Positions 622 through 49,862 are shown, numbered from the stretch's first letter. The stretch: 64,000 nucleotides of DNA from a virus (IMGVR_UViG_3300004369_000004:1-64000); one strand, 5' to 3'. A program made the numbers and translations. The notes: generated from the sequence alone by a model not told the origin.

Positions 622-866
622 CAGAATATACTTTTAGATTTAAAACTAAAGCTCAGCTTGATTTAGCTCAAGCTACTGGTTACATTGAAGATTATCCTAT
701 TGTAAGATTTAAAGTGACAAGTTACAGGGGACACACTGTAGACTTTGCAGTCAAAACAGAAGAAGAATATCACAAATTAAAAAAAGAATACCAGGATAGT
801 GACTTTGTCGAGGAGTTAGAGATCTATCCTGATTTTATGTACTTTGATAGAGAAGAATATGATTAA
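618..866 (+). CDS. hypothetical protein (82 aa)
   Basis: An 82-residue acidic protein (many E, D and Y in its second half) coupled to the membrane peptide upstream (ATGA at 618) and overlapping the ATG of the VWA-like gene at 859. No domain was recognised. Its coupling to the MoxR/VWA pair could mean shared expression, but nothing in the sequence shows a shared function. Confidence 0.6.
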   Translation: MTEYTFRFKTKAQLDLAQATGYIEDYPIVRFKVTSYRGHTVDFAVKTEEEYHKLKKEYQDSDFVEELEIYPDFMYFDREEYD

Positions 867-2034
867 CAGATTAGAAGAACTATCTAGTATAGTTAAGACT
901 ATTATGTTAGAGCAGCCCTTTTATGGGCTGTTTTTGTTAAACATAAACAAAGATTTTAATGAGAAAGTGCCGACAGCAGGCGTATCTCTTGAAGGAATTA
1001 ATTATCGACTTAGCATTAATCCTAAGTTTTGGGATTCTTTATCCGATGACCATAAACAAGGTCTGGTACTACACGAAGCTCTTCACATAGTTTTTAATCA
1101 TCTTATTTTAAGAGATGATTTTCAAGACAAGTATTTAGCGAATGTTGCAATGGACTGTGAGCTCAACCAATATATAGAGCCACATCTTTTGCCTGAAGGC
1201 GCAATACTTCCTTCTACACTAGAAAAACAGTTAGGAGTAACACTAAACAAGAAGGCTGGTACACACTATTATTATAATGCTATAGCTGAAGCTCAGAAAG
1301 ATTGTAATGGTCAAGGGCAGTGTGAAGGTGGAAAAGATCTACCTGATACACTTGATGATCATGATTCTTGGGGCAATAGCGAAGATTTGTCAGAAGCTGA
1401 GAAAAAACTTATTGAGAAACAAAACGATTATCTCATCAAAGAAGCTGCTGAACAGACTATGAAATCTCGTGGTTATATACCTGGAGAGATTCAAGAAATC
1501 TATAAACGCATTACAAAACTAGAAGAAGCCAAGTTCAACTGGAAAGCTTATCTAAGACAATTTGTAAATGGTACTGTAAGATCTCACATGAAAACTTCTC
1601 GTAAGAAGATTAATCGTAGATTAGAAAAAGAGCAAGTACCTGGCAAAAAATATCTTAGAAAAATCAACATGCTAGTTGGCATTGACACTTCTGGATCAGT
1701 TAGTAATGACGAACTGCAAGAGTTTATGAACGAAATACACCATATCCATAAAAATGGAGCAGATGTAACTATCGTACAATGCGATACAGAAATTAACTCT
1801 ATTGACAAGTTCGATCCTAGAATGAACATTAATATTAAAGGTAGGGGTGGAACCTACTTTGAACCCGTTATTGAGTATTACAACAAGAATAGAAATACTC
1901 ATACATGTCTAGTTTATTTCACAGATGGAGAAGCATCTTGTGATCTTAACCCTCAAGGAAAAATGTTGTGGGTAATGTCTTCTCAATCTCAAATAAACCA
2001 GAATCTACCTGGACCTAAAATCAAATTAAATTAA
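859..2034 (+). CDS. VWA-like protein with N-terminal metallopeptidase-like domain (DUF2201 type)
   Basis: The N-terminal half carries a zinc-peptidase-type HEALH (H72, E73, H76 counted from the ATG at 859). The C-terminal half has a von Willebrand A fold with a MIDAS metal site, DTSGS at 276-280, and a late FTDGE. This two-part layout matches bacterial DUF2201 proteins, which are usually encoded beside a MoxR-type AAA ATPase, and such a gene follows six bases later. Known VWA/MoxR pairs act as chaperone-like machines on target complexes; the target here is unknown. The ATG at 859 overlaps the previous stop and is preferred to an upstream TTG at 844. Whether the HEALH site is catalytic cannot be judged. 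Confidence 0.82.
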   Translation: MINRLEELSSIVKTIMLEQPFYGLFLLNINKDFNEKVPTAGVSLEGINYRLSINPKFWDSLSDDHKQGLVLHEALHIVFNHLILRDDFQDKYLANVAMDCELNQYIEPHLLPEGAILPSTLEKQLGVTLNKKAGTHYYYNAIAEAQKDCNGQGQCEGGKDLPDTLDDHDSWGNSEDLSEAEKKLIEKQNDYLIKEAAEQTMKSRGYIPGEIQEIYKRITKLEEAKFNWKAYLRQFVNGTVRSHMKTSRKKINRRLEKEQVPGKKYLRKINMLVGIDTSGSVSNDELQEFMNEIHHIHKNGADVTIVQCDTEINSIDKFDPRMNINIKGRGGTYFEPVIEYYNKNRNTHTCLVYFTDGEASCDLNPQGKMLWVMSSQSQINQNLPGPKIKLN

Positions 2035-22800: not shown

Positions 22801-25677
22801 AGCAATCTGTAGATTCTCTGCGTTATTACTTGTTTGAGCTTGAGTTAAAAGATCAGTTGCCTCTGCTACTGCTGCTTTCCTAGACTCAAACAATCCCTCA
22901 AATAATGCACGGTTACTTTCAGAGATAGTATACTGATACATGTTTGCAGCAGCTCTCTCAGACTTCCAAAGTCTGATGTTCTCTGCAATACGTCTGTTAT
23001 AGTCGTCCTTCAGTACACCATACTCATCGTAGTCAGACTCAAGCTGATCTAGTTGAGATTTAAGATCATCTAGTTTATCAAGATCTTCTTCAGATTGTTC
23101 TCCCTGTACAGGAGTCAATTGAATCTGACGCATCTTATCTATAATAGCGCTTCTAGCATCTTTTGCTTCAGGCAACAAAAGACCCTGGATACGATGATAC
23201 TCATCAGTATACATATCACGAAGATGTAAATCTTCAAAGGCCATTAAGTTTTCTATTCTCCTCTCAAGATCAGCATCCTCTTGCTCGGTTCTATTCTTCT
23301 TAGACTCAAGTTTGTTAATCTCGTATTTCTTTCTAGTCCAATCATTACGATAGCTAATCTCATCAAACTCATTTAACAAAGCCAGAGTCTCTCTTTCGAC
23401 TAATTGACCTCTTTGAATTTCTACAACTGTAACCTTTTGAATAAATGGACCAAAGACCTTTTGGAAGTCTAGACCTGTATAAGCAGTTATACCTTTCTTT
23501 TTATTATATGCTTGTAGCTGATCGGCAATCTTCTTCATCTCACCCTCAAGAGCTAATGCTTTTTGGGTTGAGCGTGACCAAATATTATTTATCAAAGTTC
23601 CTAAAGAACCACTAACAAGATTACCAGAAATAGCAGCTGATTCAAAAATAGAACTAAAGTAATTGGAAAGTTTTTGACGAGCGCCCTCATCTTCAATCTT
23701 TAAAGATCCTAACAAAGCTTTTTCTAGATTTTCAGGAGTAGCCAGGAAATTTAATCTATCTCTCTCCATTTTAAGCTTAAGCTGAGCATTCTGTTTAACA
23801 ACATTAGAATCTGCACTGGCTACAAGTTTTTCAAGTCTAGCAACTTCTTTCTCTATTTCTTTACGAAGAACTTCGGTTTGAGGAGCTAGTTCAGCTGCTA
23901 GTCTTTTTGCAATAGGTTTTGCAGCATTAGTATCATGATTACTTATTAAGCTTTTAGCAATAGCTTCGATGTTATTTAAAGACTTACCAATCAACGTATC
24001 AAAAGGAACGTTACCTTCTGGAAACATGAAAGACTTAAAGTCTTTTACATAGTCTACAAAGAACTCACCCATCTTAGCAGAGTGATACATCTTAGAATAA
24101 AAATCTCTTTCGGAGATAGCTTTGTTCTTCTTGATCTCTTCCATGTTTCTTGCAGCAGAACGCAAGAATGCAATAGTCTCAGACAAGTGACTTACTAATC
24201 CACTAAAAGAGGTTTTAAGATCTGCTGTCGAGATATCGTCAATTACAATACTATTTAGATGCTCCTGAGCAGCTGTAATATTATAAACGTTAACCCCTGT
24301 GCGATCTGCCTCTCTATAAACTTGAGACCAATTAACTGCATCACTATTTAAGAATTCGTCTAAGCGATCAAAAAAGATTTTAGAATCTGTGTAAGGCATC
24401 TCTTCCAAAAACTTTTCATACTCAGCAGTGCTGGGTGCATAAGAAAGTTTTCGTTGAGTACTGTATGTCAAAGAAGTATTGATGGACTCATTACTAATTA
24501 CATCTATCACCATAGCACCTACAAGAGAGTCTAAGTACTCTTGAGAAACAGATCTACCAGAACGTCCCAAAACCTTGTTAAACATCTTTTTAAAGAAGTT
24601 TAGCATTGACTGTATAAAAGAGCCGTGAACTTCAGGTGCTTCTTGCTCAATAGCTGCTCTGAATGTTGGATTAGAAAGGAACTCTGATAAAAATTCATGG
24701 TAATCAGTCAATCCATAAAAGTCTTCAATACCAATCTTGCCTTTGTGTTTTTCTCTATAGTATTCGTAGATTCTTTTAATCTCACTAGCAAAAACTTTAT
24801 CTGCGGCTGTAATAGGATTTTCTAAAACAGAGAAGAAAGCAGCATGCACCATCTCATGTATAAGAACGTTCTTAAACTTATTAGCAGAAAGAGTTGAGAT
24901 AGCAGCAGCATTAAACACAATGCTGTTAGTTACAGGATCAAACTGTCCTATTCCGTATACATTGTTTTCAGAAAACAATACGTCTTTTGTGATCTCAAAG
25001 TTAATGTCTGGAATAAACTGAGAAATAGAAAGCAGTGTATTTAAGATGTCTCTTTGTTGCGAAGTAGTACTAGGATCTTTAAGTATGTTATTAATTGTGT
25101 TGTAAAGATTAGGGTTAACCAAATCTATAAACTTAGTAAGATCTCTTAAAGCAGTAGGCAATCCATTCTCAACCTGTACATCATATAGCTCATTAAAGAT
25201 AGAGTTACCTAAAGAAGCCAAATGATCTTGGCTATAAGGAAGAGGATAAATTCTGTAAGTTCTTTCGTTAGGATTAACTTCAGGATCTACAGTTTCTATT
25301 TCTAAAGAGATGTCTTCTGGTTTATTCTTAATAATACTTCTTACTTGAGCCAGATTTAAAGTTGTGCTAATAGCAAGATTCTGCTCATCGTAAAAGCTTT
25401 GTACTTTATCTATATATCCTACAATAGAAGGATTAGCTTCTACAAAGGGAAGTTTCTCAAGTACCTCAGTTACATTAGGTTCAACGTAAGGACTTTCGCT
25501 CTTCTTATTGTTCCAGCTTTTTACTCCAGAAGATTTACTATAGATAAATCCTGCACTTAAAACATCTGACAAATCAGCTTCTGAGATACCGTTCTGATTG
25601 AGCATATATCCCACTAAAGAAGCATGTCTTCTTCCAGTTACAGGGTTATTAAAATTAATTATACAATTACGAGGCAT
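19852..25677 (-). CDS. giant virion (cargo-type) protein with zinc-protease motif (1941 aa)
   Basis: The N-terminal 400 residues contain a zinc-peptidase site HEMVH (H274, E275, H278) with a likely third ligand in YHEFLSEFL about 70 residues on. The middle (about 700-1150) is charged and heptad-rich, suggesting long coiled coils. Around residues 1405-1455 and 1690-1725 are amphipathic and hydrophobic stretches, the second followed by a run of aspartates. In crAss-like phages, giant proteins beside the RNA polymerase are packaged and delivered with the genome, so a cargo role with possible membrane contact is inferred. It has its own promoter at 25699. Confidence 0.75.
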   Translation of the reverse strand: MPRNCIINFNNPVTGRRHASLVGYMLNQNGISEADLSDVLSAGFIYSKSSGVKSWNNKKSESPYVEPNVTEVLEKLPFVEANPSIVGYIDKVQSFYDEQNLAISTTLNLAQVRSIIKNKPEDISLEIETVDPEVNPNERTYRIYPLPYSQDHLASLGNSIFNELYDVQVENGLPTALRDLTKFIDLVNPNLYNTINNILKDPSTTSQQRDILNTLLSISQFIPDINFEITKDVLFSENNVYGIGQFDPVTNSIVFNAAAISTLSANKFKNVLIHEMVHAAFFSVLENPITAADKVFASEIKRIYEYYREKHKGKIGIEDFYGLTDYHEFLSEFLSNPTFRAAIEQEAPEVHGSFIQSMLNFFKKMFNKVLGRSGRSVSQEYLDSLVGAMVIDVISNESINTSLTYSTQRKLSYAPSTAEYEKFLEEMPYTDSKIFFDRLDEFLNSDAVNWSQVYREADRTGVNVYNITAAQEHLNSIVIDDISTADLKTSFSGLVSHLSETIAFLRSAARNMEEIKKNKAISERDFYSKMYHSAKMGEFFVDYVKDFKSFMFPEGNVPFDTLIGKSLNNIEAIAKSLISNHDTNAAKPIAKRLAAELAPQTEVLRKEIEKEVARLEKLVASADSNVVKQNAQLKLKMERDRLNFLATPENLEKALLGSLKIEDEGARQKLSNYFSSIFESAAISGNLVSGSLGTLINNIWSRSTQKALALEGEMKKIADQLQAYNKKKGITAYTGLDFQKVFGPFIQKVTVVEIQRGQLVERETLALLNEFDEISYRNDWTRKKYEINKLESKKNRTEQEDADLERRIENLMAFEDLHLRDMYTDEYHRIQGLLLPEAKDARSAIIDKMRQIQLTPVQGEQSEEDLDKLDDLKSQLDQLESDYDEYGVLKDDYNRRIAENIRLWKSERAAANMYQYTISESNRALFEGLFESRKAAVAEATDLLTQAQTSNNAENLQIAQKKYQKAISDLEKFKKANVVRKVAPEFYEERRDILDAISEIQNKYPAATTGRTVQQVYEELFSLLKPYKNKNSEYEGSLIIQDKVEYVNDQGKTVKISIPVRIKQLQDELDDIREEISENREISKQDKQALRALYSQLSSMQETVETEDYEKQKAINLAKLRPKVIAALEGNVSDYSTEQIRARLEAALKKTDWFKDNHRLTYDFRTEKKVWKPTLQWQVTLPTNPNYILETEPSFRWYNIQVNPAFINPEVKENRNSKRVALKSDSIYRSKEYAKLDAEQRDILRKVTDIYQRHQKGLPKNLMKGLELPSVRKDGLEGANQSFGTIRSQISSVWGNITDSIMGRDDEELGESAMFESSQKKDSQLNRSKNRLYMKYVRPVEADKMTVNFIESITQFGAESIRFRGMYEELPYILGVRDLVEKHVRGTTAKVVNDMLERRMNGQNKVAMSNIKALRFAEEAISRSLSLGANMVLSLNLPSAIKNFQAGSANIYIQLNRFGISKKAVSKHMGKNAKEYMNLFNAQVEEGQNTPYMVKMKYFSVMTTDTLSESGKKLYLTSLDKSAKYNPLKHLAFMREFGEFEMRSAVAGALSDQFLIELNDGKFVPIMDAYQVVGNTLVPREDIKDQDGFAKAEQHYRNQLNLVNSMIHGAYGSMDKGEYSRYTFGRLLMYMRGWLGYQYISRFGSRRMSYSAGMQFEGMYRTVFNASRMLFNNKMNFVATRDLLSRNEKENIISAGYDTLAIIAAMAVAKMLASAVYSDDDDDMDNLGVYYMLYNVLYLEDELSSLHPLFGTAAIAYSRLENNVDGKSAVEYYTHKNVVLPFQSVKNVLQSIWDFTLGDINAFDDYVPRSKTGRVLNPKRYQRDPFLDGKPEIVARLAKLWALDKTVNSIYGGQEYLYRRYEYSNPKWYTSSYETDKRAARKGAASAKKEIKSIQQELNYVDDKDTKDALYERISDLQKIIDGADANIEALEGDFETMDRK

Positions 25678-25698: not shown

Positions 25699-25728
25699 CA
25701 AATATAACTATTAACACTTAGTTTCAAA
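25699..25728 (-). promoter_or_regulatory. TATATTTG promoter for the 1941-residue giant gene
   Basis: On the - strand TTTG (25728-25725), 18 bases, then TATATTTG (25706-25699). The -33 box lies within the last codons of the RNA polymerase gene. The start codon is 21 bases beyond the -7 box. Confidence 0.72.
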
Positions 25729-28700
25729 GTCATAACCAGGGTTGTTATCTCTTAGCTCTTGTCTAAATGCTTCAGCTGCTTTAGCGGCTTGTTGTGCAGT
25801 TAACTGTGGGAAATATTGTTTTAAGTTCTCAGCAGTTATCTGATCATACGATAAACTCATGGTCTCTCCATTAGGTAGTTCAATACCATAAGTCAAGTCT
25901 TCTTCAGACAACTCAGCAGGTTCTTGTTCCTTTACGGTAGAAGATTTGTCTTTGATTTTAAGACCTGACTCCTGAGCAAGAGACTCTAAAGAATCTTCTT
26001 CAGTGAAATCCATAGGAACATAATCTGCTGACGGATCTTCCATAGTTTCTGAAGTTTCTGAGTCAATCATTTTTTCAGAAGTAGGTTCTCTGTTTACCCA
26101 CGCTTCTTCCATTTCAGGAAGAACTCTTTCGTATGCGGCTTTTAGTGAGTCGATGTACCAACCACGACTTAAAGGTGTACTATTCCACTCAGCAGATAGA
26201 CCCTCTACATAAGAATTTTCTAAAAACTCTAGTCCCCCTTTATCATAAAGAGCACCAAACATACGAGAATTCTGTAAGAACCTAGCTTCTAAGATATCTG
26301 TCATGTTATTGGTAAGAAGCTCCTGTCTCTTGCCAGAGATTTTACCTTCACGCTCAAGTACGTCTTTTGTTTTTGTGTAAGCTGCCCAAGCATCTTCATA
26401 CTTCTTTCCATTAAACTCTACTTTCCAATCAGTCTTAAGGTTACCTTTTGACTTTGCAAGAGTTGTATTAGGAGAGAGCATAGCACTTAGCTGAGTCTTA
26501 TAAGGACTAATGCGAATACCTTTCACACCTGATCTATAGTCAGGGAAGTATCTACTATTATTTAAAGCACTAGTTTTAGTACCGTTAACCTTGTTATGAA
26601 GTTTAAGAATCTGCTGCATGTAAGCAAGAAGCTTCATTCTATCTTCAGAAACTTCGCCAGGTACAACTTTAACCTTCTCAGCTATAGTATCCATTTCGTC
26701 CATAGCAGGAACAATGGCGTCTAAAGCATCTAAGGGTAAGTAAGGTTGTAGACTTCTATACTTAATAGTAAAGCCTTGCCCCATAATCGTAGCGCTTGCA
26801 ACATCGTGGAAGAACTGTCTTACCTGTTCATCTAGATTTACATCACCACTTCCAGGTGTGCTCAAGCCATAATTAAGACCATCTTGGAAAGACTTCTGCA
26901 TAGAGTCAACCATAATAGGATCTCTTTCATTAGTCTCCATAGCAACATAGAACTTATTAGTGTTTTCTACGTTCTTAGTCTTAAAGTTTTTAAGGAACAG
27001 GTTGTTCTGTGCAAAATCTTTGAGCTCACTATTCTCTTGAGTTTTCTTTCTGAACAACTCAGTGAATTTACTTCTCAAGTTACCTACACCATTTTGAGTA
27101 AGGTATCCTGAATTAGGTCCATACTCTAAGTAGTAATCAACATCATCTTCCTCTGAGAAAGAATACTGTTGAATAATACCATGCATTATTGCATTGTTTA
27201 AGTTATTAACTTCTGTAGATCTTTCATCAGGAGCCCAATACTTTCCATACTCTTTAGTAAAGTCATTTAAGAAATCCTGATACCATGCCATTCCCATAAT
27301 AGAGAATGCATTCTCTCCAATTGCAATTGCTTCTTTTGTAAGGTTAAATGGAGATACTACACTATCCTTAAGAATTTTATTAATTCCATCTTGATTAAAG
27401 TTATCAGACTCTTCTTTAATAGTATTAACTACTCTGTGAAAGTCATTAAGAGTAATATATCTAGCAGTGTTAAAGTCAATAGCTGAGTTGAGGTTAAGAA
27501 GATCTTTGTTCTGCTCAGACACGAGGTGATACTGAGTCATGAATGCAATCTGAGCAGCAAGTTCAGAAGTAGATTCTCCTTGTTTTGCAGCCTCTAACAA
27601 GTTATCGTAAGCTTCACGGGTATTGTCTACAGAAGGAGCGTATGACTCTTCCGACATATTTCTAATATGCTTAGTGAAGTAGTCGTCCTTAAGTATGTTA
27701 TTAATGGTTTTATTTAGATCAGGAATATTATTAGTAAAACCTATAAACTTCTTTTTACCCAAAGCAGTTAGTCCCTCTCTCAAGTAATTCATTACACCCG
27801 AAGACTTTTCACCTAGCAACCTAGATGTAGAGTTTAGTCTAGAATTCTTTAAGTAGTGTTGAACAATAGGCTGATTAACCAACAAGATAGCATCTTCGAT
27901 AGGCGTACCATTTAACACCATTTGAAGGATAATAGGAGCTCTCTTGTTATCTGCATTAAAGTAGTTTACCCAATCTTCTTTTTCTACGTCTACAAAACCG
28001 TTGATAAACTCATCAATAAGATCAGAAATCAAATGTTCGTTATTAGCATCGTAGTATCCGCCCAGGTTAATTGAATTGTTTACTTTGTTAGCACGCATCA
28101 AATAATTCTTCATAAAGAACTCATTTGTGTAGCGAAGGCCAGTTTGCTGATACAACTTATGCAAAGCGTTCATCTTTGCAGCTGTACCTAGACCTTTCTT
28201 AGCCATAGCATTCTCTTTAAAAATCTGAAGAGATACGCTAGGAGTAAACATTCTAGAAGAAGAGATTCTACCTTTGCCCTTTTTATAAACCTCATTGTAG
28301 TGATTAGCTATCTTCTTAAGAATAGGAGAATCGTTAGGCTTAAGCATCTGCTTCATAATAGCAGGCTCAGACAATACAGAAGAAAGACTTTGGATTAACT
28401 CATTAGAGAAACCTGATTTGATTTTACCTGGAGAATACTGAGCAACTTCTGCATACTTAGAACGCATGGCTTTTATAGACTCATATAGTGCTCTAACTTG
28501 AGCATCATCTTTGCTGGCCTCAGTAAGTTTCTCTAGGAATGTAAGTTGGTCAAATGCAGAATCAAAAATCTCACTTTTCTCTTGGTCCGATAACTTAGAC
28601 TTATCAAAGTTAAGAATCATTCCATTATTAGCAATGTGTTTCTCAAGTACTTGAACAGCAGTCTGTTGCGAGTCGTACTTAGATTTGAATTCTTCTAGTT

Positions 28701-31700
28701 TATTTTTAAGAAGATCTTGGTGAGCTTTTAAGCTATCCAAAAGTTCTTTTCTAGCTGCTACATAATTGTATACAGTCTTTGGATTCTTTTTAAATCTACT
28801 GTCTGCTTGTTTTAGATTACCTTCCTGATCTAGTTCAGGCTCATACATAAACAATTTGTCAATGTCAAAGTCACCACCAGACTTGGTAACCAAAGAAGGA
28901 GGAACAATAATTATAGGACCAGCAGACTCTGAAAGAAACTCACGAACACGGAAGTGCTCCATAGAGTTAAATCCTTGTACAGGAATACGTACTCCAACAA
29001 TAGTTAATTTGTCAGAATGTTCTTCAACCCACTGATCATCCATCAATGCCTTGTTAAGGTTTGTTAGATTATCTATAATCTCGCCATCCCACTCAAGCTC
29101 AAGCAAGCCACCATATTTCTTATGGTTGAATGCGATTTTAATATCTGCAGGTTGATGTTTTCCATTTACAATACGTCCATAGTCTCTAAGACCAGACACA
29201 CCGTACTTCTCAACTTGCGCTTTTGTAGGTTTAACAAATCTTGTATTACTCTTGTTAAAGCCTGAAGAAGCCGTTTGAATAAATGCTTCGCCAAACATTT
29301 TAGGCTTAAGAACTCTCTTGCTTATAGAAGTTGAGATTACATTCTCAATCAACTGTCTGTGAGGAGATACGTCTAAAGCAAACAAGAATTTATTATCCTG
29401 CACTTTGAGATAGTCATATACTGCTTGCGGAATATCTTTCTTGTCAAACTCTGACTTAATCCAATCAGCAAACTTTGCTGTGTCAAAACTAACAAGGCCT
29501 CCTTCTTGATCTACAGTAGCTCCAATAGAACTAAATATCTTAGCTTTTTCTGTTTGTACTACTACGTCAATGTTTGTCTTAAAGGCATTAATAGCTTTAG
29601 TAATCTTTTGCTCAAGACCAGGTACAGCTTTAATCTCATCTCGTATCTCACCACCCTCATAGAAGTTAGAGAATGCTAGTTTAACCATCTGTGTAGATAG
29701 AGTAGCTTCTCCCTTAAACTTAGGAGCAATGTATTGTTGTCTTCTCAAACCTTCAATAGGAAGAGTAATTAAGTTTTCTTGTTCAATGTCGTTGGTCTTT
29801 AATACTTCATTGCTTTTACCAGAAGGCTCGATTACTTTTTCAGTTTTATAAAAAGGAATAGATTCTCTAGGAGAAGACATCTTACTTCCACTATCAAAAG
29901 TAGCAAAGTCTACTCCACCTTCTAGCATGTTAACCATCAGGTCTTCTAGATCTGTCTCAAACAACGCAGAAGGAAGCAAAGGAGCAACAGAGTATTTACC
30001 CAACATCACATAATTAGTATCTTCTACAGGGGACCCCCAGTAGCCTAACTTAAGTGAAGGCAGTGCTCCTAAATTAACCTTCGCTTGAAGTGCTTTGATT
30101 TGACCGTACACTTTAGGATCAGCTGTTTCACGGTACTCCAAAACTTTCTCCATAATTTTTACCTCGTTTTGGTAAAGTTCTTCTAGTTGAGGAGTCCACT
30201 CTCCTACGCTATCCAAATAAAATCTCAAGAAGTCTAGGTTACCATAAGCCTGTGCGTCAGATTCTTTGTCTTGTCTGATTACAGAATCAAGGGCAAGTCC
30301 TAAGTCATCCTCTGCTTGAGCTTTATAGAAAACATTGTCTTTCTTTTTCTTATCAAGGCTCTTAAGGTGCTCTGCATAACTATCAATTACTGCTTCTCTA
30401 TAAAGCCTGCTTTGAGTCTCGTTATCAAAAGTCTTAATATCCTTGAACTGTACGTAGCTAAAGTTCTTAGTATAGTCTCTTACGTTATTTGGAGATACTA
30501 AAGCCTCAAGCTTTCTGCCCAACTTAGCGTTAGAGTTTCTACTAGTCAAGTCTTGGTCATCTATAATAGGCTGACGACCTGGAGAAATAGATGCACCTAA
30601 ACGTTTAAATACTTCACGCCAGTTATTAGCTGCAATATCTTTTGGCTTGATTCCAAAGTTAGAAGGATCTCCAACTAACAAGTGTAAGTATTCTACCTGG
30701 TGGGTGTAATAGTTTGTAATATAAGAAGCCAGGGTAGGATAAATATCATAATCCCCAAAGACATCTTTAAAACGTTCTTGAAGAGATGGTAGTTTTTTAG
30801 TACCTTCAATTCTTCCACCATTAATAGCTTGCGCCAGTTCATTGATGGAAGTTTCCATCTCTGTGCTAAAGAAATTAGTAAGATAGTCTTCAAAGCTTAC
30901 ATAGCCTATTGAGTTTGCTAAAGCTTTTATAGTTTCTTCTTTTGACTTCTCACTGGTTCTTAAGCTATCTATGATTTCTTTCTTAACATCCTTAGGAAGA
31001 ATGTCATTAAAAATAATAAACTGAGCACCTCTTGTCTCCTTTGCATTTAGAGTGTCCTTCTGGTTAGAGTCATCGTAGATTCTAGCCATCTCAAACTCTA
31101 AGTAATCTTTAAACTGATCAATTACTTCAGGAGCTAGAGTAATCTTTTTTGTTTCTGGATTATAACCAAACTTATCAAATCCGTAGTAAATTCTGCTACC
31201 TCTAGACTCACCTACTCTGATAGCAAACGTAGAAGACTTTGCTCCGTTACGCATGTTCTCAACAATACCTTCTTTAAGGAAAGCAGCTAAGTCTTGTACA
31301 TACTTATCGTCTACGTCTAGATTAATAGTCTTTTTATCAGAGAAACCAGTAAAGTTATCTAGACGCATTGTAACAGGCATTCTAGATTTACCTATCAGTC
31401 TTTCGCCACCTTCATTGAACATCTTGCGCATCAAGGCGGATTTTCCAATAAAGTTATTTCTATTAGGATTTAAGTGCCCAGTAAGCTCATTAATATTCTG
31501 AGCAGCATTAATCTTTTCAATCTGATAAGCTAGGTGTTGACGCTCCCTTATAGACCACTCCATGTTTCCTTCCTCGTTCAAGAATGAACCTGACTTGGTT
31601 ACATAGTAGTAGTTTTCAATTGCTTTATACAAAAGAACTCTTTCGTTATTGAGGAATTCTTTCTTGTTAAAGTTTGCAGTAAGAAAATCGTATACAGGCT

Positions 31701-34260
31701 TAAACTCCTCTTCCTTTGCTAGAGGCTTGTTCATCGCAACAATGCGATCATAGATATCAGTTCTCAAATCACTCAAGAACGTGCCTGCTGGAGTTTCAAT
31801 ATTTCTAGGTACAAGATTCTTTAGACCTCTATACTTATCGTTAAGAGGAAGATTGTAAACTAGTTCATATAACTGCATCTTTTTATATGCAGACAGAGCC
31901 ATCTTTCTAATAGCTGCAATTGTCCCAGGAGAATAAGGGGAAACACTTTTTCTTATTTGACCTTTTTTGTCAAACAATACTTTTGCTTTTCCCTGTGTTA
32001 AATTGATACCAAAAGAATCCTGTAAGAAATCAAAGATAACTTTATCAGGACTATTAGGAAGAATCTCATAAGAATCTAAAGCAGAAGAAACAGAAAATGT
32101 AGCGAAGTCCAAACCTTCGTTAGTAGTGTTTGCAAACTTTCTATATCCATCATTGTCTACTTCCCCCCTATAAGCTCTAGAAGCGCTAAGCTGAAACTCT
32201 GTATCTAAGAATTCTGCCAATGCATCTTGAGTCAATGTGTTCACAGAGAAAGTACTTAAAGTCAAAGCAGACTTTTTTCTTTGCTTTATTTTCTTTTCCT
32301 GATCTCCTTTTTCTGCAGGAGAAACTTCTTCAGAACTAACAATCTCTTCTGATGCTTTAGCTCTCACAGTAAATGGAGGAATCTGAGGCATAGTCAAAGA
32401 TTGCATAATCTGAGCCTTAAGACTCAACTCTACAGGAGTAAGAGTAACAGAGTCAGGACTTGGAAGAAGCTCGAGCAAATCGGCCATTTGAGGATTATAC
32501 TCTACTAGGCTTTGAATCTTATTGATTACATCCTTATAAGATGTCAATCCAGACAATGCATCTTGCAAAAGGTTTTTATTGTAAAGGAAGTTTCCACTTG
32601 CAGGCAACCCTAGAAGGTTACCTCTGACCAATTGTACTTCTCCGTCTACAATTCTTTTATCAGGAAGACTTCTAATAAGCTCTACTACATATGGATCGTA
32701 GAACTGCAAAGGATTAGATGCGCCAGGATCATCATAGATACCAACAGACTTGGTTTGTTCTGACTCATCCTTATCATCGTTTAGTTTGTCTTGGCTATCT
32801 TCCTTAGCTAGAGTAGTTTTAAAAATCTCTCCCTGTATGTTTTCTTGGTGATGATCTACTACTTTCTTCCAGTTCTCTTCGCTGTGAACTAACAAGCGTA
32901 AGTATGATCTTGTATTCTCTAATCTCTCTTTAGCAGATAAAGACTTTGTAGATTCAATCTGACTAGTAAGATCATCAATCAATACCTCAACTTCGTTACG
33001 TGCAAAGTTGTACAAAGAGGAAACATACTGACTTCTAAACTTCTTGTCCATCAAGCTTGTGATGCTAACCTTGTCAGCTCTCATCTTGTTGTACAAAGTG
33101 TAGTCAATAAAGCCAAAGACCTCAAATGTTTCTTGAGGAGTAAGATCAAAAGTATTCTTGCCTGACTCATTCTCATAGTCTAGGCTAAATCCTATAGATC
33201 TATTAAGTAAGTCAAAGCTAACGTTAGTATTGTCTAGAGAGAATCTACTAAAGTTACTAGTGTAAAGAGTCTCAAATACTTCTCCTACTTTAGAATTTTG
33301 AAGATCTTTAAAAGTGATTTTCTTTTGTTCAACAGGTACTCCCGTAAAGAAAGACTTCAAGAAATCTTGAATTTTTTGGAAGATAGTTCTTACAGGCTTC
33401 TCCAATTTCTCAGGAGACTTGGTGCGAGTAATTGCATATGCTCTGTACTCCTCTGCCAAGATCTCTTCTGTCTGTCTATCAGTGAGTGCGTAATAAGGAA
33501 TACTGATTTCACCTATCTTTACAGAACCTTCTCTGTCTCTTACAGAAGCATAGAGCTCTGTGCGCTCTTCTTTAGATAGAAACTTTTGAGTGAATTCGTG
33601 AAAAGATTCGTGATACAAATCTGTTTTTTCCGAACCTCTATATACTGTTAAAGCATTCTTAGACCATGTAGCATATGCACCACTGTTAACAATGTTAGAC
33701 ATGTTAACAAAGTTGATATGTTTAGAGATCTCACTTTTTTGAAAATTAACATAGGCATCTAGTTGATCCAAAGCCGTAGTAGGCTCCATGTTATTCAGCA
33801 ATGAATTAGGATCTTGCTCTAGTTGTTCTCTTGTTACATCAAGAACTCCGTAAAAGTTTTCTCTACGTATAGCAGAAGCTCTTGCTGATTGTCGTATGTA
33901 TGATTGAGATATATCTTCAACTGTACCTTTTTTCCTATCAATGAATTCTTTTACTGCTTTGACTTTCTGAGCAGAAGACTTATTGTCAAACTCAGGATTA
34001 GCTTTTTTAAAGTTATTTCCAAAAGTAATAGACATTGCTAGAGTTGCAGCTCTAGAATCTCCTTTAAATGAGTCCTCTAATTTTTCATAAAACTTATTAC
34101 CAATTACTTTATCTAACTTGGCTCTTTTGTCAAGTCTTTGATGTAAAGGCAATCCATTGTTTTTATCCCAAAGGAAGTATGCAAAGTCCTCACCCACAAT
34201 CTGGCTAAGGTCATTAAATTGTTTTCTTATATTAGGATCTGATAAATTAGGACAAATCAT
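25711..34260 (-). CDS. virion-packaged two-barrel RNA polymerase with N-terminal protease-like domain (2849 aa)
   Basis: The catalytic signature of crAss-like phage RNA polymerases, DFDID, is at residues 1797-1801 within SGGDFDIDKLF, preceded by VRIPVQGFNSMEHF. The three aspartates are expected to hold the catalytic magnesium, as in QDE-1-like and multisubunit polymerases. The N-terminal part carries an HESFH site (H217, E218, H221) with EEILAEEYRAYA further on, the layout of a gluzincin-type protease. In the related Cellulophaga phage phi14:2 such a polymerase is packaged and transcribes early genes after entry; the same is inferred here. The acidic C-terminal 200 residues look disordered. 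It has its own promoter at 34277. Confidence 0.88.
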   Translation of the reverse strand: MICPNLSDPNIRKQFNDLSQIVGEDFAYFLWDKNNGLPLHQRLDKRAKLDKVIGNKFYEKLEDSFKGDSRAATLAMSITFGNNFKKANPEFDNKSSAQKVKAVKEFIDRKKGTVEDISQSYIRQSARASAIRRENFYGVLDVTREQLEQDPNSLLNNMEPTTALDQLDAYVNFQKSEISKHINFVNMSNIVNSGAYATWSKNALTVYRGSEKTDLYHESFHEFTQKFLSKEERTELYASVRDREGSVKIGEISIPYYALTDRQTEEILAEEYRAYAITRTKSPEKLEKPVRTIFQKIQDFLKSFFTGVPVEQKKITFKDLQNSKVGEVFETLYTSNFSRFSLDNTNVSFDLLNRSIGFSLDYENESGKNTFDLTPQETFEVFGFIDYTLYNKMRADKVSITSLMDKKFRSQYVSSLYNFARNEVEVLIDDLTSQIESTKSLSAKERLENTRSYLRLLVHSEENWKKVVDHHQENIQGEIFKTTLAKEDSQDKLNDDKDESEQTKSVGIYDDPGASNPLQFYDPYVVELIRSLPDKRIVDGEVQLVRGNLLGLPASGNFLYNKNLLQDALSGLTSYKDVINKIQSLVEYNPQMADLLELLPSPDSVTLTPVELSLKAQIMQSLTMPQIPPFTVRAKASEEIVSSEEVSPAEKGDQEKKIKQRKKSALTLSTFSVNTLTQDALAEFLDTEFQLSASRAYRGEVDNDGYRKFANTTNEGLDFATFSVSSALDSYEILPNSPDKVIFDFLQDSFGINLTQGKAKVLFDKKGQIRKSVSPYSPGTIAAIRKMALSAYKKMQLYELVYNLPLNDKYRGLKNLVPRNIETPAGTFLSDLRTDIYDRIVAMNKPLAKEEEFKPVYDFLTANFNKKEFLNNERVLLYKAIENYYYVTKSGSFLNEEGNMEWSIRERQHLAYQIEKINAAQNINELTGHLNPNRNNFIGKSALMRKMFNEGGERLIGKSRMPVTMRLDNFTGFSDKKTINLDVDDKYVQDLAAFLKEGIVENMRNGAKSSTFAIRVGESRGSRIYYGFDKFGYNPETKKITLAPEVIDQFKDYLEFEMARIYDDSNQKDTLNAKETRGAQFIIFNDILPKDVKKEIIDSLRTSEKSKEETIKALANSIGYVSFEDYLTNFFSTEMETSINELAQAINGGRIEGTKKLPSLQERFKDVFGDYDIYPTLASYITNYYTHQVEYLHLLVGDPSNFGIKPKDIAANNWREVFKRLGASISPGRQPIIDDQDLTSRNSNAKLGRKLEALVSPNNVRDYTKNFSYVQFKDIKTFDNETQSRLYREAVIDSYAEHLKSLDKKKKDNVFYKAQAEDDLGLALDSVIRQDKESDAQAYGNLDFLRFYLDSVGEWTPQLEELYQNEVKIMEKVLEYRETADPKVYGQIKALQAKVNLGALPSLKLGYWGSPVEDTNYVMLGKYSVAPLLPSALFETDLEDLMVNMLEGGVDFATFDSGSKMSSPRESIPFYKTEKVIEPSGKSNEVLKTNDIEQENLITLPIEGLRRQQYIAPKFKGEATLSTQMVKLAFSNFYEGGEIRDEIKAVPGLEQKITKAINAFKTNIDVVVQTEKAKIFSSIGATVDQEGGLVSFDTAKFADWIKSEFDKKDIPQAVYDYLKVQDNKFLFALDVSPHRQLIENVISTSISKRVLKPKMFGEAFIQTASSGFNKSNTRFVKPTKAQVEKYGVSGLRDYGRIVNGKHQPADIKIAFNHKKYGGLLELEWDGEIIDNLTNLNKALMDDQWVEEHSDKLTIVGVRIPVQGFNSMEHFRVREFLSESAGPIIIVPPSLVTKSGGDFDIDKLFMYEPELDQEGNLKQADSRFKKNPKTVYNYVAARKELLDSLKAHQDLLKNKLEEFKSKYDSQQTAVQVLEKHIANNGMILNFDKSKLSDQEKSEIFDSAFDQLTFLEKLTEASKDDAQVRALYESIKAMRSKYAEVAQYSPGKIKSGFSNELIQSLSSVLSEPAIMKQMLKPNDSPILKKIANHYNEVYKKGKGRISSSRMFTPSVSLQIFKENAMAKKGLGTAAKMNALHKLYQQTGLRYTNEFFMKNYLMRANKVNNSINLGGYYDANNEHLISDLIDEFINGFVDVEKEDWVNYFNADNKRAPIILQMVLNGTPIEDAILLVNQPIVQHYLKNSRLNSTSRLLGEKSSGVMNYLREGLTALGKKKFIGFTNNIPDLNKTINNILKDDYFTKHIRNMSEESYAPSVDNTREAYDNLLEAAKQGESTSELAAQIAFMTQYHLVSEQNKDLLNLNSAIDFNTARYITLNDFHRVVNTIKEESDNFNQDGINKILKDSVVSPFNLTKEAIAIGENAFSIMGMAWYQDFLNDFTKEYGKYWAPDERSTEVNNLNNAIMHGIIQQYSFSEEDDVDYYLEYGPNSGYLTQNGVGNLRSKFTELFRKKTQENSELKDFAQNNLFLKNFKTKNVENTNKFYVAMETNERDPIMVDSMQKSFQDGLNYGLSTPGSGDVNLDEQVRQFFHDVASATIMGQGFTIKYRSLQPYLPLDALDAIVPAMDEMDTIAEKVKVVPGEVSEDRMKLLAYMQQILKLHNKVNGTKTSALNNSRYFPDYRSGVKGIRISPYKTQLSAMLSPNTTLAKSKGNLKTDWKVEFNGKKYEDAWAAYTKTKDVLEREGKISGKRQELLTNNMTDILEARFLQNSRMFGALYDKGGLEFLENSYVEGLSAEWNSTPLSRGWYIDSLKAAYERVLPEMEEAWVNREPTSEKMIDSETSETMEDPSADYVPMDFTEEDSLESLAQESGLKIKDKSSTVKEQEPAELSEEDLTYGIELPNGETMSLSYDQITAENLKQYFPQLTAQQAAKAAEAFRQELRDNNPGYDFETKC

Positions 34261-46323: not shown

Positions 46324-46800
46324 TTAACATTTCCAACGTCTACGTGCTTGTCTGATTCTAGAATTAGGATCATTCTTTGTCTTCTCAGAAGAACGTTTTA
46401 ATTGACCTAATGATCTTGCACAGTAAGACTTTCTACGTTTAGCTGCAAGCGAGCCTGGTTTAACCTTACCAGTTACAGCTGTTTTTAATTTAGATCCAGG
46501 ATTAGCTTTTCTATAAGCTCTTACTCCCTTTTCTGTCATACCTGCTCCTTCTTTAGTTGGGCGATAGTTAGCACCAGGACCCTTTGTTGTATGTCTTATA
46601 GTGCCTCCTTTAGCCATGTAAAGAGATTGCAGTTTATTTATCTTAGCACCATGCTTTGCTTTTCTCCAGGTGCCGCCTTTTGACTTATACCATTTAGCAG
46701 CCCAACCATTGGCATAGGCTGATGGATATACATCAAACTTTTGTCTAGCCATAGATTTAGCTCTAGACCAAAGACTTGGGTTATTAGGTTTATTTGCCAT
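46324..46800 (-). CDS. basic virion-region protein with YPSAYANGW motif (158 aa)
   Basis: A 158-residue, strongly basic protein. The first third has SLWSRAKSMARQKFDVYPS and AYANGWAAKWYKSKGGTW; the last third has SYCARSLGQLK and NDPNSRIRQARRRWKC. Both blocks recur in small proteins of large phages and giant viruses, from memory, without a settled function. Charge and location suggest a DNA-associated virion protein. It begins one base before the upstream gene's stop. Confidence 0.65.
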   Translation of the reverse strand: MANKPNNPSLWSRAKSMARQKFDVYPSAYANGWAAKWYKSKGGTWRKAKHGAKINKLQSLYMAKGGTIRHTTKGPGANYRPTKEGAGMTEKGVRAYRKANPGSKLKTAVTGKVKPGSLAAKRRKSYCARSLGQLKRSSEKTKNDPNSRIRQARRRWKC

Positions 46801-49800
46801 TATTTTTTTCTTTTATGGTTATATGGAATTCTAGTTGACGAAGTCTTAGCTGCTTTAAACTTTGCTTTCTCAGTAGAAGAAAGTTCAGAAGAAGTCTTAG
46901 GAGTTTTACTACTTACTCGTTTAGAAGGTCTGCATGCAGGATAAGCTCTATTCTCTCCCTCTTGTCTACCACACTGTTTGCCTGTTTTAACATCTACCCA
47001 CTTCTCAGCAAACCATCTATCTAAGCCACCATGTTGACCACCAGATTTATATTGTTTCTTTTTATCGTAAAAAGACGATGATACTACTGTACCATTAACT
47101 CCTGGTACAGTCATTCCCCCATCTTGGTATAAAGCAGCATTAAAAGAAGAGTGTCCTCCGTGGAATCCAGTTGCCTTGCCTTTCTCCAGAGCATTCTTCC
47201 AAAGACCAGAAGCCTGTGGACTCTGAGTATTCATACCTGAACTAACTCTTCCTAAGTCTAATCTTTTTAAGTAATCATTCAAAGATTTGTAAGAACGAGT
47301 ACCACGAACTACCTCTTCACCGATTCTAACAGCTTCTGTAGGAAAAACTCCTGCAGCACTATTTGACATTTGTAAACCAGGAATACTTCTTAAATAAGCT
47401 TTGTTTGTAATATCAGGAATATCTCCTCTATATAAACCAGGTCTTGTAGTTACTCCCCACTCTCTAGGTCCTTCTACTATAGTGTTTCTTCCCACTACGC
47501 GATTATAACGATCAGCTAGAGACTTCATTAACTCTTCCTTAGTTAATGCACTAGTAGTCAAATCATTTATAGTAAGATTGAATAACTCTGGATCATCTGG
47601 AAAACCTTTGGAAAGAGAATGCATTCTCTCGATTGTTCCTTCCTCTAACAATTCATCAAAATATCTATTAGGATTAGATCTGAATAAATCTAAACGTTGC
47701 CTTTGAAAATCATTTAAAGGAAAAGTAGCCCGTTGTCGTGGAGTATAAATAGTCAACTCATCTCCTCTTGGATTTAATCCTTGAACTCTGTATTCTAAAC
47801 CAGAAACATTATTTGCAGGAATAATTTCATCGTTTAAGAGATCAAGATTTCTATTGAATATATCTATGTACTCTTCTCTAGGAATATCAACAACCCCAGG
47901 TAACTTTTGATCAGGAGCCAAAGGTTTAAGTCTACCATAAACATCAGTTACAGTATTTCTATATTCTTCAGGAGTCATAAGCTTTGCAATCTCTCTTTGT
48001 TGTGGAGAAAGCTTAGGAGAGCCCATTTCAAAATGGGACTGATTAACAACTGCTGGTCTAGGTTTAACTCTAACACTATTAGGATTAGAGCCTGAAATAA
48101 ATTCTCTACTAGTAGTTGTCTGAGATTGAGGAGCTCTTTCAAATAAATCTAATTGTCGAGGTTGAGCAGAAGAAGCCTCCCCAGCAACATCATCCATTAT
48201 CCTAGAGGTAGGAGTTGTCATTCGTAGTGCAGGACTTGCAACTTCATCTAGTGAGCGAGTAGCAGATCTTCTAGCTAATTTAGCCAAAGAACCTGCAGCT
48301 TTGCTAGTAAGTTTTGGAACCATACTAGCTGCACCAACTATAGTAGCAGGATCTAATACTGCATCAACTGCAAACGCACCATAAGGATTTTGAATATCCA
48401 TTGCTTCAGATGGAGTTTGTACTTTGCCAGTAAGGTTGTACATCATACCAAGTTGAGGCACCGTAAAAGGAGAGGTAAGAACTTGCGCAAAACTTCCTGC
48501 TATATCATTTCCAGTCTTATACCAGTTTTCTCCACCAGTAGCATCTGATATTCTTCTAGCCATTTGACTACTAAAGTCATTTGGATCTGTATCATATCCA
48601 TAAGGGTAAAAACCCATTCTATCAGCAATCTGTCTAGGCATCCTTTTATACCAAGGTGCTCTCTTTGATGTAATCTCAACAGGAGCTATTCTGTCAGGAT
48701 TTTCAGCAGTAGATGTTTCTAGAGATCCGCCCGCTTGATATTGTCTAGTTTGGTACTCACTGATAGGGTAAAGAGATTCTTCAGGAGTACCTTCCAAGGC
48801 TCCATCTTGCATATATCTAGTTGTATCTTTTTGATATCTAGAATACAATGCGTCTATGTCTACAGGAATCTCTGCGCCATCTTGTGCAATCTTTTGCTTA
48901 GCTACATCTTCTTTAGCAAACAAGTACATGTACTTATTAATATCATTATCTGATAAGCCGATGTCTTGTAGCTGTTTATATTGTGCTTTATCTCCTTCTG
49001 AAAATCCTTCTTTATAGTTATTAATATCGTAACCAGGCTGAAGTAATTCGTAGCCTTGATCTATAGAAGAATCTCTAAGAGCTTTTAGTCTAGCTTTTAC
49101 TTCACTGGGATTTGAAAGATACTCATATTCTTTAGTCCTCTTAGGAGGATTAATAAAGCTATTAAGATCTTGAGATAAGACTTGTGTAAAGTAATCTCCA
49201 ACTTTAGTAGCGCCAGGGGTGTAGGAGCTATCTAAAGAGTGCGATAATTCATGCCTAAAAAAAGATGGATTGTACTTACCCTTCTTTAATAGAATACTAT
49301 GATCACCAGGTTTATACTTTGCATAAGTACTAGGTCCAAAGTTCATAAAAGACATATAAGGCACATCTACACGTAGTTCGTCAAGATTAAGCCTTCTAGC
49401 ATCAATCATATCCTGTACAGGTCTATCCTCGGAATCAGGCCCATAGAATTCTGTCTGTAATAGTTTTTTATACTCAGGAGTATTAAGTGCTTCAGTTTGT
49501 CTATCAACCTCAGCGCTAGCATCTCTATAGATTTGTCTCCTAGACAATCCACCTTTTTGCATTCGAGTCTCAAGAACTTCTTTATCTCCTGGAAATTTAT
49601 ATTCTTTCCCAGGCTGCATTACAACAGTCTTACCAGTTTGTAAACCTTTACCGAGTACAGGTCTTTTAAAGAAATCTTTTTCTCCATTAGGACCTTTCAT
49701 AGTAATACGATTAGAAGAAACAATAACTTTGTTAAGTTTTTTATTCCATAAACCAGTTTTACTCTTAGGAATATTAGTCTTTTTAGACTGCGCTTTATTA

Positions 49801-49862
49801 GCAGGTTTTTTAATTCCTTTTTTTACTTTGGTAAATTGTTTGTATAACTGGCTGATTTTCAT
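46800..49862 (-). CDS. large virion-region protein with HELSH protease motif and basic C-terminal domain (1020 aa)
   Basis: Residues 204-208 read HELSH within FFRHELSHSLD, a zinc-protease-type HExxH. The middle part is Pro/Ser-rich. The last 80 residues (from about 942) read GGLDRWFAEKWVDV, CGRQEG, YPACRPSKRVS and KTP, a compact cysteine-containing domain found alone or fused in many phage proteins (DUF5872-like, from memory). It starts five bases after the 123-residue basic gene, so it belongs to the tail/cargo transcript. A protease that matures virion proteins or acts during entry is possible; activity is unproven. Confidence 0.65.
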   Translation of the reverse strand: MKISQLYKQFTKVKKGIKKPANKAQSKKTNIPKSKTGLWNKKLNKVIVSSNRITMKGPNGEKDFFKRPVLGKGLQTGKTVVMQPGKEYKFPGDKEVLETRMQKGGLSRRQIYRDASAEVDRQTEALNTPEYKKLLQTEFYGPDSEDRPVQDMIDARRLNLDELRVDVPYMSFMNFGPSTYAKYKPGDHSILLKKGKYNPSFFRHELSHSLDSSYTPGATKVGDYFTQVLSQDLNSFINPPKRTKEYEYLSNPSEVKARLKALRDSSIDQGYELLQPGYDINNYKEGFSEGDKAQYKQLQDIGLSDNDINKYMYLFAKEDVAKQKIAQDGAEIPVDIDALYSRYQKDTTRYMQDGALEGTPEESLYPISEYQTRQYQAGGSLETSTAENPDRIAPVEITSKRAPWYKRMPRQIADRMGFYPYGYDTDPNDFSSQMARRISDATGGENWYKTGNDIAGSFAQVLTSPFTVPQLGMMYNLTGKVQTPSEAMDIQNPYGAFAVDAVLDPATIVGAASMVPKLTSKAAGSLAKLARRSATRSLDEVASPALRMTTPTSRIMDDVAGEASSAQPRQLDLFERAPQSQTTTSREFISGSNPNSVRVKPRPAVVNQSHFEMGSPKLSPQQREIAKLMTPEEYRNTVTDVYGRLKPLAPDQKLPGVVDIPREEYIDIFNRNLDLLNDEIIPANNVSGLEYRVQGLNPRGDELTIYTPRQRATFPLNDFQRQRLDLFRSNPNRYFDELLEEGTIERMHSLSKGFPDDPELFNLTINDLTTSALTKEELMKSLADRYNRVVGRNTIVEGPREWGVTTRPGLYRGDIPDITNKAYLRSIPGLQMSNSAAGVFPTEAVRIGEEVVRGTRSYKSLNDYLKRLDLGRVSSGMNTQSPQASGLWKNALEKGKATGFHGGHSSFNAALYQDGGMTVPGVNGTVVSSSFYDKKKQYKSGGQHGGLDRWFAEKWVDVKTGKQCGRQEGENRAYPACRPSKRVSSKTPKTSSELSSTEKAKFKAAKTSSTRIPYNHKRKK

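Follow-up and report, generated by a model that had tools for sequence, protein, structure and literature searches.

What is a protease-like domain doing on the same polypeptide as a phage RNA polymerase (RNAP)? The question is raised by a 64,000-nucleotide stretch of viral DNA (IMGVR_UViG_3300004369_000004:1-64000, hereafter the window), whose minus strand encodes, at 25711-34260, a giant protein of 2849 residues, P0001, with an ATG at 34260, no internal stops and no other long frame in the region. The polymerase resembles that of the crAss-like phages, the most abundant viruses of the human gut, whose giant ejected proteins are, to our knowledge, largely unexplained. An earlier reading of the sequence (the original prediction) had described this chain as a two-barrel RNAP fused to a gluzincin-like domain which, if active, could release the polymerase or cut other ejected proteins during entry; the single open frame, the motif HESFH at residues 217-221 (33598..33612) and the catalytic motif DFDID at residues 1797-1801 (28858..28872) were found exactly where it had placed them. 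The answer that emerges from the analysis reported here is that the zincin is probably an extra tool of infection, and not a part that the polymerase needs.

The polymerase and zincin domains of P0001

The polymerase region occupies residues about 430-2200 (27661..32973). A tblastn search of annotated phages matched 78 records, and the matches listed (60) were crAss-like wherever the record was classified; they included phi14:2 g066, annotated as 'Catalytic RNA polymerase subunit', and crAss001. In an alignment of 18 crAss-like RNAP cores, the G-x-DFD-x-D block that holds the DFDID motif was invariant, as was R-P...S of the upstream RIPTQ...S block. The profile of this alignment (A1) matched the structure of phi14:2 gp66 (PDB 6VR4) with E=1.2e-79, and Foldseek matched the AlphaFold model of residues 1300-2196 (pLDDT 86, pTM 0.83) to the same entry with E=3e-19 and a TM score of 0.59. 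Calmodulin-like matches of the core profile were judged to be due to chance. These results, in which the barrels are taken together and not one by one, agree with the polymerase type originally proposed and support the assignment of P0001 to the crAss-like virion RNAP family (phi14:2 gp66 type), with a predicted two-barrel core on a single chain.

The zincin domain, which we call J-type, spans residues about 150-345 (33226..33813). Searches of whole P0001 against Pfam, PHROGs and NCBIfam gave nothing useful. In an AlphaFold model of residues 1-430, made with 95 sequences (pLDDT 83 overall, mostly >85 in the zincin core), a helix (163-175) is followed by three strands (183-187, 195-200 and 203-207), a helix bearing HExxH (214-227) and a helix bearing E266 (261-281), which is the zincin order, as described for the core of the zincin-like metallopeptidases (MPTases) (PMC5512222). 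The Glu-rich stretch TEEILAEEYRAY (residues 264-275) falls within the last of these predicted helices, in keeping with the downstream glutamate-rich helix of the original prediction. H217 and H221 are the predicted zinc ligands, E218 the predicted general base, and E266 (33463..33465), in an E-x-x-A-[E/D] helix, the predicted third ligand. By composition, HExxH arose in 2.4% of shuffles of P0001 (DFD[IV]D in 0.3%), and DNA coding for HExxH was not enriched in the window, with 4 matches in six frames against about 2 expected; HESFH is thus convincing by its conservation and not by its presence alone.

When cuts of 210 residues around each HExxH in 18 GenBank and related loci were compared by BLAST, they fell into two main connected families. 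The J family, comprising the P0001 zincin, the fused proteins of Suoliviridae and crAss001 gp47, adjoins the RNAP; the T family, comprising P0003 of the window, phi14:2 gp65 and cr4_1 gp27, lies in the protein downstream of the RNAP. The zincin segment of P0001 matched cr4_1 with 30% identity (E=3e-17), and the profiles of the two families are homologous (hhalign E=2.6e-10). A fold search among viral predicted structures returned crAss-like giant proteins as the best matches (E 9e-5), followed by weak matches to M48, SprT and IrrE; the Pfam SprT-like family PF10263 left the J-type zincin unmatched. The alignment and the model support residues about 150-345 as a real, gluzincin-like zincin domain. 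An amphipathic helix (residues 287-305, EKPVRTIFQKIQDFLKSFF, 33346..33402; predicted helix 288-306) lies directly behind it, and its hydrophobic moment ranks at the 99.9th percentile when all 18-residue stretches in P0001 are compared; a matching element follows the T-type zincin, with a moment at the 99.2nd percentile.

Conservation, inactivation and probable loss of the zincin

The conservation of the predicted active site was assessed in a nonredundant set of IMG/VR loci found by polymerase motifs or polymerase similarity only, so that the presence of a zincin was not selected for. In a first sample every catalytic residue was retained in 61/61 J domains, including those of the window protein and its close relatives. 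The proposition that all J domains present are active, which held in that sample, was rejected by a broader one, in which the 139 J domains comprised 119 with the H/E/H pattern, 13 with H/E/E, six with W/E/R and one aberrant form. The original prediction had staked its case in advance on the conservation of H217, E218 and H221 in relatives, and all three are kept in the 119/139; its other condition, a fold around residue 217 at odds with a zinc site, found no support in the order of elements of the model. The glutamate of the 266 column is present in every HExxH domain (119/119) and every HExxE domain (13/13), and is gone from all six W/E/R domains (replaced by T in five and by I in one); that all three predicted ligands vanish at once is good evidence for a joint function. 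Domains of the WExxR form are confined to one clade of the RNAP tree, pointing to a single inactivation event, and the window protein belongs to a well-supported clade with intact sites. H217, H221 and E266 very probably form a functional metal site in the window zincin, with E218 as the base.

The inactivated domains (YWExxR, with T or I at the Glu column) are those of L292, L298, L299, L302, L305 and L307, all on RNAP chains that are fused where full-length. The HExxE domains (L218, L223-L225, L235, L236, L241, L251, L260, L296, L314, L319 and L330) are intermixed on the tree with HExxH relatives (L237, L244, L248 and L331), and with E266 retained they perhaps form an alternative metal site.

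P0001 begins with a further domain (residues 1-90, MICPNLSDPN...GEDFAYFLWDKNNG, 33991..34260), recognized by profile matches, that we call the CPN leader. This element of ~85-90 residues, with the pattern [M/I]CPN...GE..AY.LW..NNG, is found at the extreme N-terminus of varied crAss-like giant proteins, 124/130 of the profile matches beginning inside the first 40 residues, and is possibly a packaging or ejection signal. It is carried by the RNAP in the window clade and in a sister clade that lacks the zincin, and by the downstream T-zincin protein in Suoliviridae-like phages; loci with a leader outside the window include L005, L001, L115 and L117-L123.

The arrangement of leader, J domain and RNAP is common to the nearest relatives of the window protein (L100, L103, L106, L108, L110-L113 and L116). 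In the sister clade (L115 and L117-L123) the leader and RNAP are kept and residues about 130-420 are missing, the clean absence of the zincin between them being visible in L115, L117 and L119. The place of the J domain along the chain varies: it lies mid-chain in fused proteins of 4000-5600 residues, many IMG/VR contigs have it at residues 600-900, the window clade and a few others carry it N-terminally, and in crAss001-like phages it is the C-terminal part of the product of a separate gene (gp47). Intestiviridae have, in place of J, a T-like zincin that is C-terminal in the upstream protein. In a quick RNAP tree of 183 rows the presence of J switches many times, and its well-supported branches require 12 or more changes for 'absent', a state that means not detected by the hidden Markov model, in contigs that are often fragments with 10-kb flanks, such that very diverged J domains may be missed. 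Because the root of this tree is arbitrary, loss rather than gain is the direction that we infer; the J module is widespread in the crAss-like group, and would then be old and often lost or disabled.

Fused chains, taken as those in the nonredundant RNAP-found set whose core starts at residue 2350 or later, numbered 93: an intact J lay in the chain in 63 and in another frame in one, J was present without HExxH in 18, and no J was detectable in 11. The idea that fusion requires an active J-zincin was rejected by this broader sample. Four of the 11 chains without J (L216, L310, L400 and L189) carry a different HExxH at a similar place, 1100-1470 residues upstream of the core, and their zincin may have been replaced or have strongly diverged. 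Unfused lineages include both those without J (phi14:2-like) and those with intact sites (the window clade).

Possible roles of the zincin

We favour, at about an even chance, the interpretation that the zincin is an injected accessory protease whose target is other than the junction with its own polymerase. By analogy with phi14:2 and crAss001, the capsid would hold P0001 and release it together with the DNA, after which the two-barrel core would transcribe early genes; the zincin would bind its metal and cut either a protein of the host or another ejected protein of the phage, while the envelope is being crossed or once the cell has just been infected, and the amphipathic helix may tether it to a membrane or a partner. 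In crAss001, gp47, gp49 and gp50 were detected in virions (PMC6235969; masses in PMC10172136). The polymerase of phi14:2 works and has no J domain (PMC7886860, PMC10136315), and this, together with the clean loss of the module in the sister clade and the repeated changes to 'absent' on the tree, points to its accessory nature. Several observations nevertheless weigh against this interpretation. J keeps a strikingly constant place immediately upstream of the RNAP core, as would be expected more of a domain that serves the polymerase or its polyprotein than of a free effector, and processing could pass to the T-zincin in phages that have lost J. In addition, the 430-residue model matched no solved zincin in the PDB at E<0.001 (the best fold matches include MATCAP, SPRTN and a M. 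tuberculosis regulator, all with E>0.3), nor did the J profile find one among solved structures at that threshold, its best real candidate being Zmp1/PPEP at 0.2-0.8.

In the main competing explanation, to which we give well under an even chance, the zincin would process its own chain: by cutting the giant protein, or a polyprotein of upstream segment and RNAP, it would set the polymerase free, either while it is packaged or once it has been ejected, a function of the kind suggested for MPTase domains in polyvalent proteins. The location of the domain between an upstream segment and the RNAP core in many lineages, often inside one protein of 4000-5600 residues, is consistent with such a role, as are the intact J in the same chain in 63/93 fused proteins and the precedent of phage P1 DdrB, which is processed before packaging (PMC5512222). 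However, the active site is retained where the genes are already separate (the window clade and crAss001), the fused chains include the 18 with J but without HExxH and the 11 without detectable J (even if four of these have another HExxH), and the N4 virion RNAP, with a domain of this kind, enters the virion in uncleaved form (PMC5512222). The gel bands of crAss001 virions include 270 and >300 kDa (PMC6235969), although a trim of ~20 kDa from gp47 would escape resolution. Since active sites are kept in unfused lineages and are dead or missing in some fused ones, release from a polyprotein is neither required nor sufficient, and this, with a phi14:2 RNAP that works without J, leads us to favour an accessory protease over self-processing. 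For the same reasons the release of the polymerase, put forward in the original prediction, is not supported as a general role, the more so as fused giants occur with a dead (WExxR), altered (HExxE) or undetectable J domain.

It is unlikely that the domain is a structural or pseudo-enzyme module, its fold being kept for the packaging, ejection or docking of the RNAP without proteolysis in this phage. One clade does retain the fold after replacement of every ligand (WExxR, with T or I at the Glu column), indicating that the fold can be useful without catalysis; however, the window protein and its close relatives with J keep all catalytic residues (61/61), which is unexpected without selection on the site. 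Finally, HESFH might be a chance motif on a helical stretch of a large RNAP that lacks any zincin, an explanation that could appeal to its frequency in shuffles (about 2.4%) and the lack of enrichment in the window DNA, and that has next to no probability in our view: it is ruled out by the joint conservation of three ligands over >100 divergent loci, and the zincin order of secondary structure and the homology with the T-zincin profile speak against it as well.

Neighbouring genes and related systems

The gene downstream of P0001 encodes P0003 (19852..25677, minus strand; 1941 residues), in the gene position of phi14:2 gp65. Its T-type zincin domain (24469-25041), with HEMVH at residues 274-278 (24844..24858), is homologous to the J-zincin and to the zincin of the N4 virion RNAP, and the zincin segment matched phi14:2 gp65 with E=9e-22. 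The Pfam SprT-like family matched it with E=8.4e-6, at 26 bits for the segment (cut-off 25.6) and 22.1 bits for the whole protein. Upstream lies P0002 (34315..40785, minus strand; 2156 residues, no HExxH), which by gene order takes the place of crAss001 gp47 or phi14:2 gp67. Homologues of P0002 were found in close relatives only, and the proposal that it is a homologue of gp47 or of the N-terminal part of the fused proteins was dropped, as no homology was detected; in the window the constancy of the J position is therefore a matter of gene order alone. Two further HExxH proteins are encoded in the window. A protein of 1020 residues (46800-49862, minus strand) has HELSH at residues 204-208 with EYLSNPSEVKARL downstream and a C-terminal DUF5872 domain, and was unmatched by the J and T profiles. 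At 844-2034 (plus strand) lies a metallopeptidase-like DUF2201_N and VWA-like protein (Pfam 1.7e-14 and 9e-21) with HEALH at residues 77-81.

The P0001 polymerase shares with phi14:2 gp66 its family, the DFDID motif, the RIP.Q...S block and the core fold, whereas gp66 (2180 residues) is without a zincin and that phage has one in the downstream gp65 only. The giant proteins of Suoliviridae (cr4_1 gp26, cr10_1, cr52_1, cr114_1 and cr118_1) carry a J-zincin homologous to that of P0001 directly before the RNAP core, and crAss001 has one at the C-terminus of gp47, a neighbouring virion protein; in these phages the zincin lies mid-chain in a fusion of 4300-4950 residues or in another gene, whereas the window has a separate RNAP gene whose product bears the zincin near its N-terminus, after the leader. 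A zincin at the boundary of the RNAP gene is also found in Intestiviridae cr110_1 gp39, annotated in GenBank, following crAssphage NC_024711, as 'RNAP associated protein fused to zincin protease'; this one differs in being nearer the T-type in pairwise scores and in lying at the C-terminus of the upstream protein. Another phage, jaberico, carries the GenBank annotation 'ZnMc_tr'. The fusion is less singular than the original prediction supposed, since zincins recur widely as a module in gene blocks of this type.

Outside the crAss-like phages, the polymerase of N4 is T7-like and unrelated to the two-barrel RNAP. The N4 virion RNAP (Schitoviridae) nevertheless combines an ejected polymerase and a zincin on one chain (PMC5512222; structure preprint PMC12633501), as P0001 would if it is delivered likewise, the zincin of N4 being C-terminal to the polymerase. 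The T-zincin profile matched the N4 zincin with E=2.3e-6, and the J profile matched it weakly (E=0.013). P0001 has the large multidomain architecture of the polyvalent proteins with MPTases, and could belong with them if it is delivered with the phage DNA. We tentatively raise the doubtful but wider possibility that two unrelated virion-ejected RNAPs, the crAss-like two-barrel enzyme and the T7-like enzyme of N4, were each joined to one family of injected zincins, and that the crAss-like module is a host-directed protease whose retention, loss or inactivation has followed the host.

Our literature search found no paper describing the J-zincin of crAss-like RNAPs; the primary phi14:2 structure paper, which lay outside the search, may comment on the domain. 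Already known are the zincin at the RNAP boundary, named in some GenBank records, and the zincin in the N4 virion RNAP. What the analysis adds is that the RNAP chain itself bears a zincin throughout one clade and in numerous fused lineages, together with the three-ligand pattern and its joint loss, the repeated loss of the module, the existence of dead and HExxE variants, a second zincin homologous to the first and the common N-terminal leader. The domain is a concrete target for study, being conserved, separable, probably active as a protease and placed beside the polymerase that acts first in the cell, and relatives in which the module is absent, dead or of the HExxE form provide a natural comparison set. 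The link to the N4 zincin suggests that an injected polymerase and an injected protease may have been paired more than once.

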